A stretch of 64,000 nt of DNA, taken from assembly GCF_012568845.1 (NCBI RefSeq), contig NZ_CP046194.1:188385-252384 (forward strand), given 5' to 3'. Below, in pieces: positions 4,303 through 7,977 of the stretch. The notes under the pieces were generated by a model that did no database searches, was not told where the DNA came from, and was given only the letters and a program-made list of their open reading frames with translations. Source of the stretch: Enterobacteriaceae endosymbiont of Donacia cincticornis. GTDB taxonomy: Bacteria; Pseudomonadota; Gammaproteobacteria; Enterobacterales; Enterobacteriaceae. Numbering within the stretch: position 1 is the first letter of the stretch; each line of letters opens with the position of its first letter. A program made the position numbers and the translations under genes.

Positions 4303-5082
4303 ATGAAAAAATTTTTAATTATTGCTAATTGGAAATTAAATGGTAGTTATAATTTTATAGATAAAAATCTAAATATAATTAAAAAAATAAATAATTCTTT
4401 AAATTATTGTCAATTATCTATATCGCCTCCTTATGTATATTTAAATTATATTAATAATTTAATAAAAAATACTTCCATATCTTTAACAGCACAAAATGTT
4501 GATATTCATTTAAAAGGATCTTTTACAGGAGAAATATCAGTAAATATGTTAAAAGATATAGGTGTAAAATATGTAATAATTGGTCATTCAGAAAGAAGAA
4601 TATATCATAATGAAGATATTGATCTTATATCAAAAAAATTTGTCTTAGTTAAGAAATATGGTCTCATCCCAATTTTGTGTATAGGAGAAACTGCAGAACA
4701 GAAAAAAAATAAATTAACGGAAAAAATTTGTATTAATCAAATTAATAGTATACTTAAAATTAGTAATATTAAAATATTTAATAATACTATTATAGCATAT
4801 GAACCAATATGGGCTATTGGATCTGGTAAAATAGCAGATATAAATGAAGTAAAAAAAATTATTTTGTTTATTAAAAAATATATATTTTCTTTAAATAAAG
4901 AAATAATAAAAAATATATATTTTCAATATGGTGGATCAGTAAATTTTTTTAACATAAATCATTTTTTTACAAAAAAATATATAAATGGTTTTTTAATAGG
5001 TAAAGTTTCTTTAACAATAAAAGATTTTGTACTTTTAATCGAAAAAATAGAAAAAAGTTTATATTTATTAAATAGGTCTTAA
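4303..5082 (+). CDS. tpiA: Triosephosphate isomerase
   Basis: A 259-residue TIM barrel that interconverts dihydroxyacetone phosphate and glyceraldehyde 3-phosphate in glycolysis. The substrate-binding lysine is in NWKLN (residues 9-13), the catalytic histidine in IGHSERR, and the catalytic glutamate in AYEPIWAIGSGK. The phosphate-binding YGGSVN is also present. All catalytic residues are intact. In E. coli fpr and tpiA are near neighbours, so the order is ancestral. The last 15 bases overlap the 3' end of the convergent lysS. Confidence 0.97.
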   Translation: MKKFLIIANWKLNGSYNFIDKNLNIIKKINNSLNYCQLSISPPYVYLNYINNLIKNTSISLTAQNVDIHLKGSFTGEISVNMLKDIGVKYVIIGHSERRIYHNEDIDLISKKFVLVKKYGLIPILCIGETAEQKKNKLTEKICINQINSILKISNIKIFNNTIIAYEPIWAIGSGKIADINEVKKIILFIKKYIFSLNKEIIKNIYFQYGGSVNFFNINHFFTKKYINGFLIGKVSLTIKDFVLLIEKIEKSLYLLNRS

Positions 5083-6567
5083 CATCGGAAATAAAATAAC
5101 ATCTCTTATTGATTTAGTATTTGTAAATAGCATAACTAATCTATCTATTCCTATACCTAATCCGGCAGTAGGAGGTAATCCATGTTCTAATGCTTCTATA
5201 TAATCCTTATCATAAAAATAATTATTAATTTTTTTATAATTTTCTTGTTTTTTAAATCTTTTTTTTTGTTCTTGAGAATCATTAAGTTCTGAAAAACCGT
5301 TTGCAATTTCCATCCCACAAATAAAAAATTCAAATCTATCGGTAAATAAAGGATTCGAATCATTACTCCTTGATAACGGAGAAATTTCAATAGGATATTC
5401 TGTAATAAATGTCGGTTCTATAATTTTATTAATAATTTTTTCTTCAAAAATTTTAGAAATAATTTTACCTTTACTCCAATGTAAATTAATTTTAACATTT
5501 AAAAAATTAGCAATTTTTATCAATTTATTTAAATTTTCTAAATTTTCTAAAGAAAAATTAGGATAAAATTTTATAATAGCTTCTTTCATAGTTAATTTAT
5601 TAAACTTATTATTTAAATCAAAAACATGACTATTATATTTTAATAAATTATTTTTAAATATTTTTTTAAATATTTTTTTAAATAATTTTTCAAAGAAAAT
5701 CATTAAATCTTTATAATCTGAATATGCAACATATAATTCCATCATAGTAAATTCAGGATTATGTTGAGTTGATATTCCTTCATTACGAAAATTTCTATTA
5801 ATTTCAAAAATTTTATTAAATCCTCCAATAATTAAACGTTTTAAATATAATTCAGGAGCAATACGTAAATATATATTCATATTATATTTATTATGATAAG
5901 TTATAAAAGGTTTAGCTAAAGCTCCTCCTGGAATATTATGCATCATCGGAGTTTCTACTTCAATAAAATTATTTTTATTCATAAAATCCCGAATATTTAA
6001 TATAATTTGATGTCTTTTTTGGAAGACAAAACGTGTTTTTTCATTCACAATAAGATCTAAGTATCTTTTTCTATATTTTATTTCTTTATTTTGTAATCCA
6101 TGATATTTATCAGGTAATGGTTTTGTTGCTTTTGTTAATAAGTAAATTTTTTGACAAAAAATTGACAAAACTTGAGTTTTAGTTTTAAAAACATAACCAA
6201 TTATACCTATAATATCTCCAAGATCATATTCTTTTAAAAATTTTTTATATTCTTGAAAAGATATCTCATTTTGAGATATATAAATTTGTATTTTACCTGT
6301 ATAATCTTGAATGTTAATAAAAGAAGCTTTACCCATAATACGTATATTTACTATACGTCCTGCAATATGTAATGTTTTTTTTTGAAAAAAATCATTTTTT
6401 TTATTTGAAATCTTATCCAAATAATTACATGTAATATTAACTTTAAAATGATTAGGAAAAACTATATTATTATTTTTTTTTAATATATCTAATTTTCTAG
6501 ATCTAAATTTTATTTCATTATTATTAATATTTTTAATATTATTTAGTTTATCTTTTAATTCAGACAT
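5068..6567 (-). CDS. lysS: Lysyl-tRNA synthetase (class II)
   Basis: A 499-residue class II synthetase that charges tRNA-Lys. It has an N-terminal OB-fold anticodon-binding domain (about residues 65-150, with RIMGKASFINIQD) and a catalytic core. Motif 2 is seen as FRNEGISTQHNPEFTMMELY and motif 3 as GLGIGIDRLVMLFTN near the C-terminus. Length matches the E. coli enzyme. It lies 23 bases after prfB, the conserved prfB-lysS operon. Its 3' end overlaps convergent tpiA by 15 bases, so neither gene has room for a separate terminator. Confidence 0.97.
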   Translation of the reverse strand: MSELKDKLNNIKNINNNEIKFRSRKLDILKKNNNIVFPNHFKVNITCNYLDKISNKKNDFFQKKTLHIAGRIVNIRIMGKASFINIQDYTGKIQIYISQNEISFQEYKKFLKEYDLGDIIGIIGYVFKTKTQVLSIFCQKIYLLTKATKPLPDKYHGLQNKEIKYRKRYLDLIVNEKTRFVFQKRHQIILNIRDFMNKNNFIEVETPMMHNIPGGALAKPFITYHNKYNMNIYLRIAPELYLKRLIIGGFNKIFEINRNFRNEGISTQHNPEFTMMELYVAYSDYKDLMIFFEKLFKKIFKKIFKNNLLKYNSHVFDLNNKFNKLTMKEAIIKFYPNFSLENLENLNKLIKIANFLNVKINLHWSKGKIISKIFEEKIINKIIEPTFITEYPIEISPLSRSNDSNPLFTDRFEFFICGMEIANGFSELNDSQEQKKRFKKQENYKKINNYFYDKDYIEALEHGLPPTAGLGIGIDRLVMLFTNTKSIRDVILFPMLRPI

Positions 6568-6590: not shown

Positions 6591-7689
6591 TTATAAACCT
6601 AATTTTAAACTTGCTTGAATAAAGTGATCTAAATTACCATTTAATACAGATTGTATATTTTTACTTTCTATACCGGTCCTTATATCTTTTATTCTCGAAT
6701 CATCTAATATATAAGAACGTATTTGATATCCCCAACTAATATTAAATTTTTTTTTTTCTATTTTTTTTTTTGTTTTTTCCCTTATTTTATTTTGTAATTC
6801 ATATATTTTATATTTTATTTGTTTCATAGCTTGATTTTTATTTTTATGTTGTGATCTATTATTTTGACATTGTGTAACTATCCCGGTAGGAATATGCGTA
6901 ATACGTACAGCAGATTCTGTACGATTTACATGTTGTCCACCAGATCCAGATGCTCTATATACATCAATACGTAAATCTTCCATATTAATAGATATATCTG
7001 TATTTTCTTTAATTTCAGGATACATAAAAGTTGAAGCAAAAGATGTATGTCTTCTACCTGAAGAATTAAAAGGACTTTTTCTAACTAAACGGTGGATGCC
7101 ACTTTCTGTTCGAAGCCATCCAAAAGCATATTTACCAATGATATGAATTGTAGACGATTTAATACCGACAATCTCTCCAGGAGATTCATTTATTATAGTT
7201 ACTTGATATTTTTTTTTTTCTGCCCATTTTAAATACATTTTCATTATTATTTGAGCCCAATCTTGTGATTCTATCCCACCAGATCCAGATTGTATATCTA
7301 TAAAACAATTTTTTTTATCATTTTTTTTAAAAAAAATTTTTTGTAATTCCAAATTATTTATTTTTTTTTGTATTTGAAATAAAATTTTTATAGATTCTTT
7401 TAACATTTTTTTATCATTAGAATGGATTGCTAAATTAATTAATTCATCAATATCAATAATATCTTGATTAATATTATCTAAAGTTAATAGCATATTTTCT
7501 ATATTAGATTTTTTTTTATTTAAAGAGAGTAAATCATTTATATTTTTCCAAATATGTGGATTTTGTAATTTTTCTTTTATTTTTAATAATTTTTTTTGAT
7601 ATTTTGAATAATTAAAGAAACCCCCTAATAAAAATATTTTTTTTTTTAATTTCTTTTAATTTATTTTTTATCAAAATAATTTCTGACAT
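6591..7689 (-). CDS. prfB: Peptide chain release factor 2, expressed by programmed +1 frameshift
   Basis: RF2 releases peptides at UGA and UAA stops. The gene starts at the ATG at 7689, preceded by AGGA, runs 25 codons to a stop at 7614-7612, and continues in the +1 frame from 7613 to the TAA at 6591. The joined product is 365 residues, exactly the E. coli length. The stop-recognition tripeptide SPF is in KSPFNSSG and the catalytic GGQ is in SGSGGQHVN. The frame-two segment before the first downstream ATG (7493) encodes KEKLQNPHIW, homologous to the E. coli N-terminal helix, which proves the frameshifted product is the real protein. It is followed by lysS. Confidence 0.96.
7612..7626 (-). promoter_or_regulatory. 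prfB: RF2 programmed +1 frameshift site with UAA stop
   Basis: Read on the minus strand the site is AGGGGG TTT CTT TAA T. The AGGGGG acts as an internal Shine-Dalgarno element three bases before the slippery CTT codon. The stop is codon 26, the same codon as in E. coli, where the site reads AGGGGG TAT CTT TGA C. Here the stop is TAA rather than TGA. A +1 slip on CTT-T continues as AAT TAT TCA, giving N-Y-S, in the frame that encodes the rest of RF2. Confidence 0.93.
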
Positions 7690-7844
7690 ATTTAGTTCCT
7701 AACTTTTAATAAAAAATTGTAAATATAAAATAATTTTTATATTAATTTTTATTAATATAAATTTTATATAGATAATTATTAATAATTTATAAATATTAGA
7801 TATGAATAATAATTTAAAATTTAATTTTATTAAATTAATAAATT

Positions 7845-7917
7845 TGGCCCTTGTTGGACTTGAACCAACGACCTAACGATTATGAGTCGTTTGCTCTAAC
7901 CACTGAGCTAAAGGGCC
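7845..7917 (-). tRNA. ileX: tRNA-Ile2 (anticodon CAT, lysidine-modified)
   Basis: A 73-base cloverleaf on the minus strand with acceptor GGCCCTT/AAGGGCC, D arm TAGCTCAGTGGTTAGAGCA, anticodon loop CTCATAA and T loop TTCAAGT. The anticodon is CAT, but the body matches E. coli tRNA-Ile2 (identical D arm, near-identical acceptor) rather than elongator or initiator tRNA-Met. Its C34 should be converted to lysidine by TilS, whose gene is at 41703-43034. No CCA tail is encoded. Confidence 0.9.
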
Positions 7918-7977
7918 ATACATAAATACAACATTATGTTATATTTTAATATATATTTCAATTATATTTATTATTTT

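Follow-up and report, generated by a model that had tools for sequence, protein, structure and literature searches.

Frameshifting in the RF2 gene, prfB, is a textbook case of autoregulated recoding, in which a UGA stop makes the feedback specific for RF2. The prfB gene of the Enterobacteriaceae endosymbiont of Donacia cincticornis has UAA at this position, which raises the question of whether the gene retains a working regulatory site and, if so, what such a site would sense. We addressed this question starting from a stretch of 64,000 nucleotides (hereafter the window), which lies inside a 454,754-bp contig; the second contig of the genome has 6,683 bp. The original prediction placed here a prfB +1 frameshift site with UAA, composed of AGGGGG, the usual spacing, CTT at codon 25, TAA and a +4 T, with a joined product of 365 residues. 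Every one of these elements is observed directly in the sequence and its frames. The gene lies on the minus strand with its start codon, ATG, at 7689; AGGGGG-TTT-CTT-TAA-T occupies positions 7626-7611, and a shift at codon 25 joins ORF1 and ORF2 into 365 aa ending at 6591. The features of the locus are the following:

7844..7918, minus strand: tRNA-Met(CAT), upstream of prfB
7612..7689, minus strand: zero-frame ORF1 of prfB, 25 codons (MSEIILIKNKLKEIKKKNIFIRGFL) and then TAA
7637..7647, minus strand: A11 run in ORF1; a transcript lacking one of these A residues would likewise have the RF2 frame open
7621..7626, minus strand: internal Shine-Dalgarno-like (SD) AGGGGG, codons 22-23, followed by a 3-nt spacer and CTT
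7618..7620, minus strand: spacer codon TTT, which occupies the E site while CTT occupies the P site
7614..7617, minus strand: slippery CTTT, with a predicted slip of tRNA-Leu(GAG) from CTT to TTT
7617-7615, minus strand: slippery codon CTT, codon 25
7612..7614, minus strand: premature stop TAA (UGA in nearly all bacteria)
7611..7611, minus strand: +4 base T (usually C), third base of AAT, the first +1-frame codon
6591..7613, minus strand: +1-frame ORF2 of prfB, the RF2 body, 340 codons from AAT plus stop
5068..6567, minus strand: downstream ORF of 499 aa from the open reading frame list, which we take to be lysS

The gene thus has a short ORF1 closed by a stop and a long +1 ORF2 without a start of its own near the junction, an SD-like AGGGGG three bases 5' of the slippery codon, a slippery CTTT for which tRNA-Leu(GAG) is available, and a premature stop readable by RF2, UAA being a small minority form. 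The RF2-specific UGA is absent, with TAA in the window and 16 relatives, as is the C after the stop, with T at 7611. The translation of ORF2 contains SPF and GGQ, to which we assign their presumed functional roles in RF2, and has Ala at the position aligned to E. coli residue 246. At CUU, tRNA-Leu(GAG) is the tRNA described as being used (PMC13245932), and in Blochmannia prfB is reported to adjoin lysS (PMC4389277). The motif AGGGGGNNNCTTTAA, with up to one mismatch allowed, has a single match in the 64-kb window, exact and at the prfB site; in the shuffle control the mean was 0.17 matches, and 16 of 100 shuffles had at least one match somewhere. From the last upstream stop to 7493 there is no ATG, GTG or TTG in the RF2 frame, so that full-length RF2 needs either a shift or an altered transcript. 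Restart in the RF2 frame near the site was rejected, as the first start, ATG at 7493, would yield a product of 300 aa that lacks the N-terminal part.

Aligning prfB from related symbionts, the check proposed along with the original prediction, revealed UAA-U in 17 of the 24 genomes of the genus, UGA-U in five and a fused gene in two, with TAA-T at the same codon in the 16 UAA genomes other than that of the window. Using the host assignment of PMC7289800 (Plateumaris, G012, G020, G014, G010 and G016; Neohaemonia, G018; Macroplea, G002 and G021; Donacia, the other 15 and the window), the UAA-U carriers are 16 Donacia symbionts, window included, and that of Neohaemonia, the UGA-U carriers are the five Plateumaris symbionts, and the fused prfB without the stop belongs to the two Macroplea symbionts. 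The pattern is also seen directly in a protein tree from which the site was excluded: the Plateumaris UGA clade of five (97/97) stands opposite the other 19 genomes (94/89), and the three states (UAA, UGA and fused) need two changes. According to Reis et al. 2020 (PMC7289800), Plateumaris is sister to all other Donaciinae, and the whole radiation covers 75-100 million years. Given the two changes and the sister position of Plateumaris, the simplest reading would be one UGA-to-UAA change on the Donacia + Haemoniini stem and one later fusion in Macroplea. The +4 T is present in all 22 genomes of the genus that have the stop; therefore, it either predates the split or arose on both sides.

Several individual genes of the genus deserve mention. 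In the Macroplea symbionts (loci L034 and L053), prfB is a single frame with the SD gone and is nested in the UAA clade, indicating a later loss of the switch. Three Plateumaris symbionts (L044, L052 and L046 in G012, G020 and G014) keep UGA, but their SD has decayed to AGGAAT or AGGAGT; the Donacia symbionts show the opposite combination, UAA with a strong SD. The symbiont of Plateumaris pusilla (G010; L042, positions 1140-1080, minus strand) has AGGAGGTTTCTTTGAT followed by a long A run of such a length that the ATG and the RF2 body share one frame, with UGA inside it; a frameshift with a second shift, readthrough or a homopolymer assembly error are the options. In G003, 96 N lie inside prfB (L035, positions 1125-1220), and the apparently longer RF2 of this genome was discarded as an artefact of that stretch.

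How common is UAA at prfB sites in general? In the survey of Prince et al. 2025, 98.6% of 8,164 genomes with the motif have TGA and 1.4% TAA; as presented there, the UAA sites are not broadly fixed in clades, and the C after the stop is highly or almost universally conserved (PMC12421855). We took an even sample of 392 Enterobacteriaceae-type genomes and from it picked by eye reduced genomes of up to 2.0 Mb (rounded), 117 without counting five of the window's genus. One genome of another family (G058) was added, and 7 of these 118 had no prfB match at the threshold. Genes were classified by an alignment anchor and an upstream ATG at a distance of 18-34 codons; G162, in which the anchor did not work, was classed as fused, and two genomes of the genus, G010 (in-frame according to the script) and G002 (unclear), were placed by eye. 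The 111 reduced genomes read outside the genus comprise 59 frameshift-type, 41 fused and 11 unclear prfB genes. The frameshift-type genes have UGA in 42, UAA in 17 and UAG in no case; UAA occurs in 14 of the 32 genera represented, four of which have both stops. Comparison genomes of the family and order (n = 29; 27 above 2.0 Mb, G056 with 1.7 and G043 with 2.0) include 25 frameshift-type genes, all with UGA. The difference (17/59 vs 0/25) has a Fisher P of 0.002 by genome; here and in our other counts, the genomes depend on each other phylogenetically. In a tree of frameshift-type genes with 91 rows, 35 of 88 inner branches are weak, and the UAA/UGA distribution needs 13 parsimony changes.

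Pattern scans, which miss other SDs and spacers and thus give lower bounds, add to this picture. The UAA pattern had 15 matches in the 392-genome sample: five in the window's genus, seven at true prfB sites in other small genomes and three outside prfB; no true UAA prfB match was found in the 270 larger genomes of the sample. A scan of GTDB contigs with AGGGGGTWYCTTTAAYTAY produced 32 matches, of which 14 are flagged as prfB and two are partial genes starting like RF2 (L071 and L077). All 16 are UAA-C and none is UAA-T, in a scan limited to AGGGGG with C or T at +4 and possibly leaving out records near the window. UAA prfB sites are also found in free-living bacteria of other families. UAA-C sites L065, L088, L089 and L093 belong to Thiospirillum, Thiodictyon, Chromatiaceae and Thiocapsa records, which we group as presumably purple-sulphur type, and L083, L091 and L077 to Thiobacillus/Hydrogenophilales records; there is a hint of further clade clustering in these two groups. 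As a separate observation, the UAA sites of three symbionts (L187, L192 and L176 in G068, G212 and G110) combine AGGAGG and a TAT or AAT spacer with TTT TAA C, that is, with TTT as the slippery codon; the TTT sites described by Prince et al. carry TGA (PMC12421855).

The original prediction that prfB almost always has TGA followed by C therefore holds for bacteria at large (98.6% TGA of 8,164; PMC12421855) and fails for the reduced symbionts read beyond the genus: of their 59 sites, 17 carry TAA and 33 carry a +4 C. In other words, UAA is rare overall (1.4%), and in the reduced genomes read it is a recurrent state; its view as an isolated oddity did not survive the finding of 17 of 24 carriers in the genus and 14 other symbiont genera in addition to the 1.4% in print. 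The rare UAA stop was already known. For its spread through a clade and its recurrence in symbionts we found no earlier report: the literature searched on prfB with UAA and symbionts yielded no description of a clade-wide UAA at the prfB site, and the main text of two papers on reed-beetle symbionts (PMC7289800 and PMC12508126) contains no mention of prfB.

Conservation of the site elements can likewise be read directly from the genomes. Within the genus, codons 22 and 25 are AGG and CTT, respectively, in all 17 genomes with UAA; codon 23 is GGG in 15 and AGG in two, and AGGRGG is present in every one. The other invariant codons of ORF1 are only 1, 12 and 20. In the window, AGG accounts for 3.2% of Arg, GGG for 5.6% of Gly and CTT for 8.5% of Leu codons. 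Among the reduced genomes outside the genus, GGRGG is found at this place in 12 of 17 UAA sites and 14 of 42 UGA sites, compared with 0 of 41 fused genes (fused vs UAA, Fisher P = 7e-9 by genome); three fused genes (G175, G195 and G196) have a weaker GGGG near the place. The strong SD is thus seen only where a stop must be passed, and both fused Macroplea genes also lack GGRGG. Since the rare AGG and CTT are kept in 17 of 17 genomes and GGRGG is absent from fused genes, the UAA site in the genus looks selected. A link between UAA and a stronger SD is suggestive only. Outside the genus, the strong SD is more frequent with UAA than with UGA by genome (12/17 vs 14/42, Fisher P = 0.019), whereas collapsing to genera with the window's genus added gives 11/15 vs 10/23 (P = 0.10). 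The first 45 genomes gave P = 0.118 for the SD class and 0.115 (one-sided) for duplex energy, the link was not significant in sister pairs, and the four mixed genera other than that of the window showed no difference in SD class between UAA and UGA.

The +4 T had been singled out in the original prediction as a strong stop context, an emphasis that is weakened by the UGA-bearing Plateumaris symbionts, which also have T. This base is the third position of the first +1-frame codon, and it fits the codon bias of the window, where GAT makes up 98% of Asp and AAT 95% of Asn codons. In P. fluorescens, a change to +4U after the UGA of prfB is described as causing no detectable growth defect, while SD or CUU changes caused one (PMC13245932). 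UAA-U is expected to be the strongest termination signal in bacteria (PMC5289835), and frameshifting should accordingly be low unless release factors are in short supply or slow.

As for what drove the switch, mutation toward A+T explains the direction from UGA to UAA, although not everything. At a locus GC of up to 0.25, UGA is kept in 15 of 22 frameshift-type symbionts and UAA is found in seven (first 82 genomes read, outside the genus), while in sampled genomes with GC up to 0.25 UGA makes up 1.3-10.7% of terminal stops. UGA is therefore usually still favoured at the site despite being rare as a terminal stop, and this preference was lost or overruled in the Donacia line. Scarcity of UGA found no support as a discriminating driver: within the genus, terminal UGA is alike in UAA-site (3.3, 4.3 and 9.0%) and UGA-site genomes (3.8, 3.6, 4.5 and 1.3%). 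The 121 ORFs sampled from the window genome end with TAA in 112, TGA in four and TAG in five cases (about 93% UAA and about 3% UGA). In the window itself, 45 ORFs of at least 120 aa have 42 TAA, three TAG and no TGA.

The translation apparatus required for the site is also directly observed in this genome. Its 16S rRNA ends with GGATCACCTCC... and includes the anti-SD CCTCC, the tRNA-Leu(GAG) gene is present, RF1 is intact and the PrmC methylase is encoded. That UAA could also be read by RF1, as originally proposed, is thus supported, and both factors could act on it. Outside the genus, RF1 was found in each of the 16 UAA symbionts tested (all of the 17 except G400), in 15 of them over the cut-off; for the remaining 23 genomes of the genus, it was picked up with the RF2 model, as a weaker match ranking second, rather than with a model of its own. 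As RF1 is present, we rejected a loss of RF1 that would make UAA specific for RF2. RF3 had no match over the cut-off in any of the 24 genomes of the genus, where the weaker RF3-model matches are open frames of ~600-710 aa, presumably other GTPases. Residue 246 of RF2 is Ala in 12 and Ser in 12 of these genomes. In E. coli, loss of RF3 is reported to raise RF2 expression with Thr246 RF2 and not with Ala246 RF2 (PMC5373646). Since RF2 of the window is of the Ala246 type, RF3 loss cannot be counted as compensation, and we dropped this idea. According to the same source, Ala246 RF2 is a major contributor to the reading of UAA in E. coli (PMC5373646), and RF2 with Ala or Ser at this position may still dominate UAA reading at the site.

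This last point underlies an explanation to which we give somewhat less than an even chance, namely that the G-to-A change was a nearly neutral product of AT-biased drift, with RF2 doing most UAA termination and the loop remaining RF2-sensing in practice. In its favour are the confinement of UAA to reduced genomes in the family and order sets read (17/59 vs 0/25), the 13 parsimony changes and Ala or Ser at residue 246 (12 genomes each), given the role of Ala246 in E. coli (PMC5373646); in the view of Prince et al., moreover, a UAA site should continue to respond to RF2 (PMC12421855). Yet a free base should make UGA as rare at the site as it is terminally (1.3-10.7%), and 15 of 22 AT-rich genomes, which are not independent of each other, keep it. 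UAA sites also exist outside reduced genomes, in other families.

If UAA were a step toward losing the frameshift altogether, the fused prfB in 41 of 111 reduced genomes and in the Macroplea symbionts inside the clade of 19 would be its natural end point. We consider this very unlikely because all 17 UAA genomes of the genus keep the strong SD and CTT, while the eroded SDs (AGGAGT and AGGAAT) sit in the UGA-bearing Plateumaris clade. The stop might also be bypassed by transcriptional slippage, with one A lost at the A11 run as the main route to RF2. Such a loss opens a 365-aa frame in the window; counting the window, each of the 21 frameshift-type genomes in the genus gains a frame in this way, of 364-398 aa (G003 holds the N stretch). 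Runs of 11 or 12 A occur in 13 of 17 UAA genomes, and long A runs have been reported to correct 12-50% of transcripts of some symbiont genes (PMC5009743). Against this, the longest run varies among relatives from 5 to 12, and four of the 17 UAA genomes (G001, G005, G011 and G018) have runs of only 5-8 with the same site kept, which makes slippage unlikely as a conserved route. In Buchnera, transcript deletions are put at ~2e-5 per nucleotide, rising with run length, and no restored frame was observed there (PMC5574713). Slippage also leaves the conserved SD and CTT unexplained, and overall we regard it as very improbable. A sequencing or assembly error of TGA can hardly be entertained with TAA at the same codon in 17 genomes.

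We therefore favour the view that prfB of the window probably has a working RF2 autoregulatory +1 frameshift site in which UAA replaced UGA as the sensor codon, most simply through one G-to-A substitution on the Donacia + Haemoniini stem, and was kept thereafter. A ribosome would read ORF1 up to CUU, with UAA in the A site. When release at UAA is slow, SD pairing and slippage of tRNA-Leu(GAG) from CUU to UUU would lead to full-length RF2; when it is fast, the 25-residue peptide would end at the site. As UAA is read by both RF1 and RF2, feedback should track the capacity of the two factors together to release at UAA, the stop of about 93% of the ORFs sampled from this genome, and RF1 would plausibly share or weaken the feedback by RF2. 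We infer frameshifting at the site, its rate and the RF1 share; the literature searched holds no frameshift product, ribosome profile or reporter for the Donacia cincticornis symbiont. It is tempting to speculate further that in Donacia and Haemoniini an RF2-specific UGA sensor came to respond to overall UAA release by RF1 and RF2, matched to the UAA-ending genome, with the strong SD kept to offset UAA-U. This possibility is a tentative one; if true, RF2 autoregulation in reduced symbionts would have a second form that is stable and recurs. The UAA switch has been kept through much of the reed-beetle radiation, and the UAA clade, its UGA sister and the nested fused genes constitute a natural experiment on the need for RF2-specificity. 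The clade-wide UAA also qualifies the published statement that there is no broad fixation in any clade (PMC12421855).

Compared with known systems, the window shares with the E. coli-type prfB site (CUU UGA C) the position at codon 25/26, AGGGGG, the 3-nt spacer, CUU, the +1 direction and the RF2 product, and differs in UAA for UGA, U for C at +4 and a UUU spacer for UAU. The fused in-frame prfB of Macroplea (G002 and G021) has the locus and the protein in common with it, whereas the premature stop is absent there, the SD is lost and feedback is not expected. Other UAA sites of reduced symbionts, such as that of Serratia symbiotica of Cinara cedri (L092), have the same stop and frameshift layout, with CTT (14/17) or TTT (3/17) as the slippery codon and RF1 found in the 16 tested; they differ in the +4 base, which is C in 11, T in four and A in two of the 17. 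The 16 UAA prfB sites of the GTDB scan have C at +4 in contrast to T in the window. Finally, the UAA sites of Prince et al. 2025 (1.4% of 8,164) have CTTTAA in the same motif and gene and, as described there, are not broadly fixed, whereas the type seen in the window is common to 17 of the 24 genomes of one genus.
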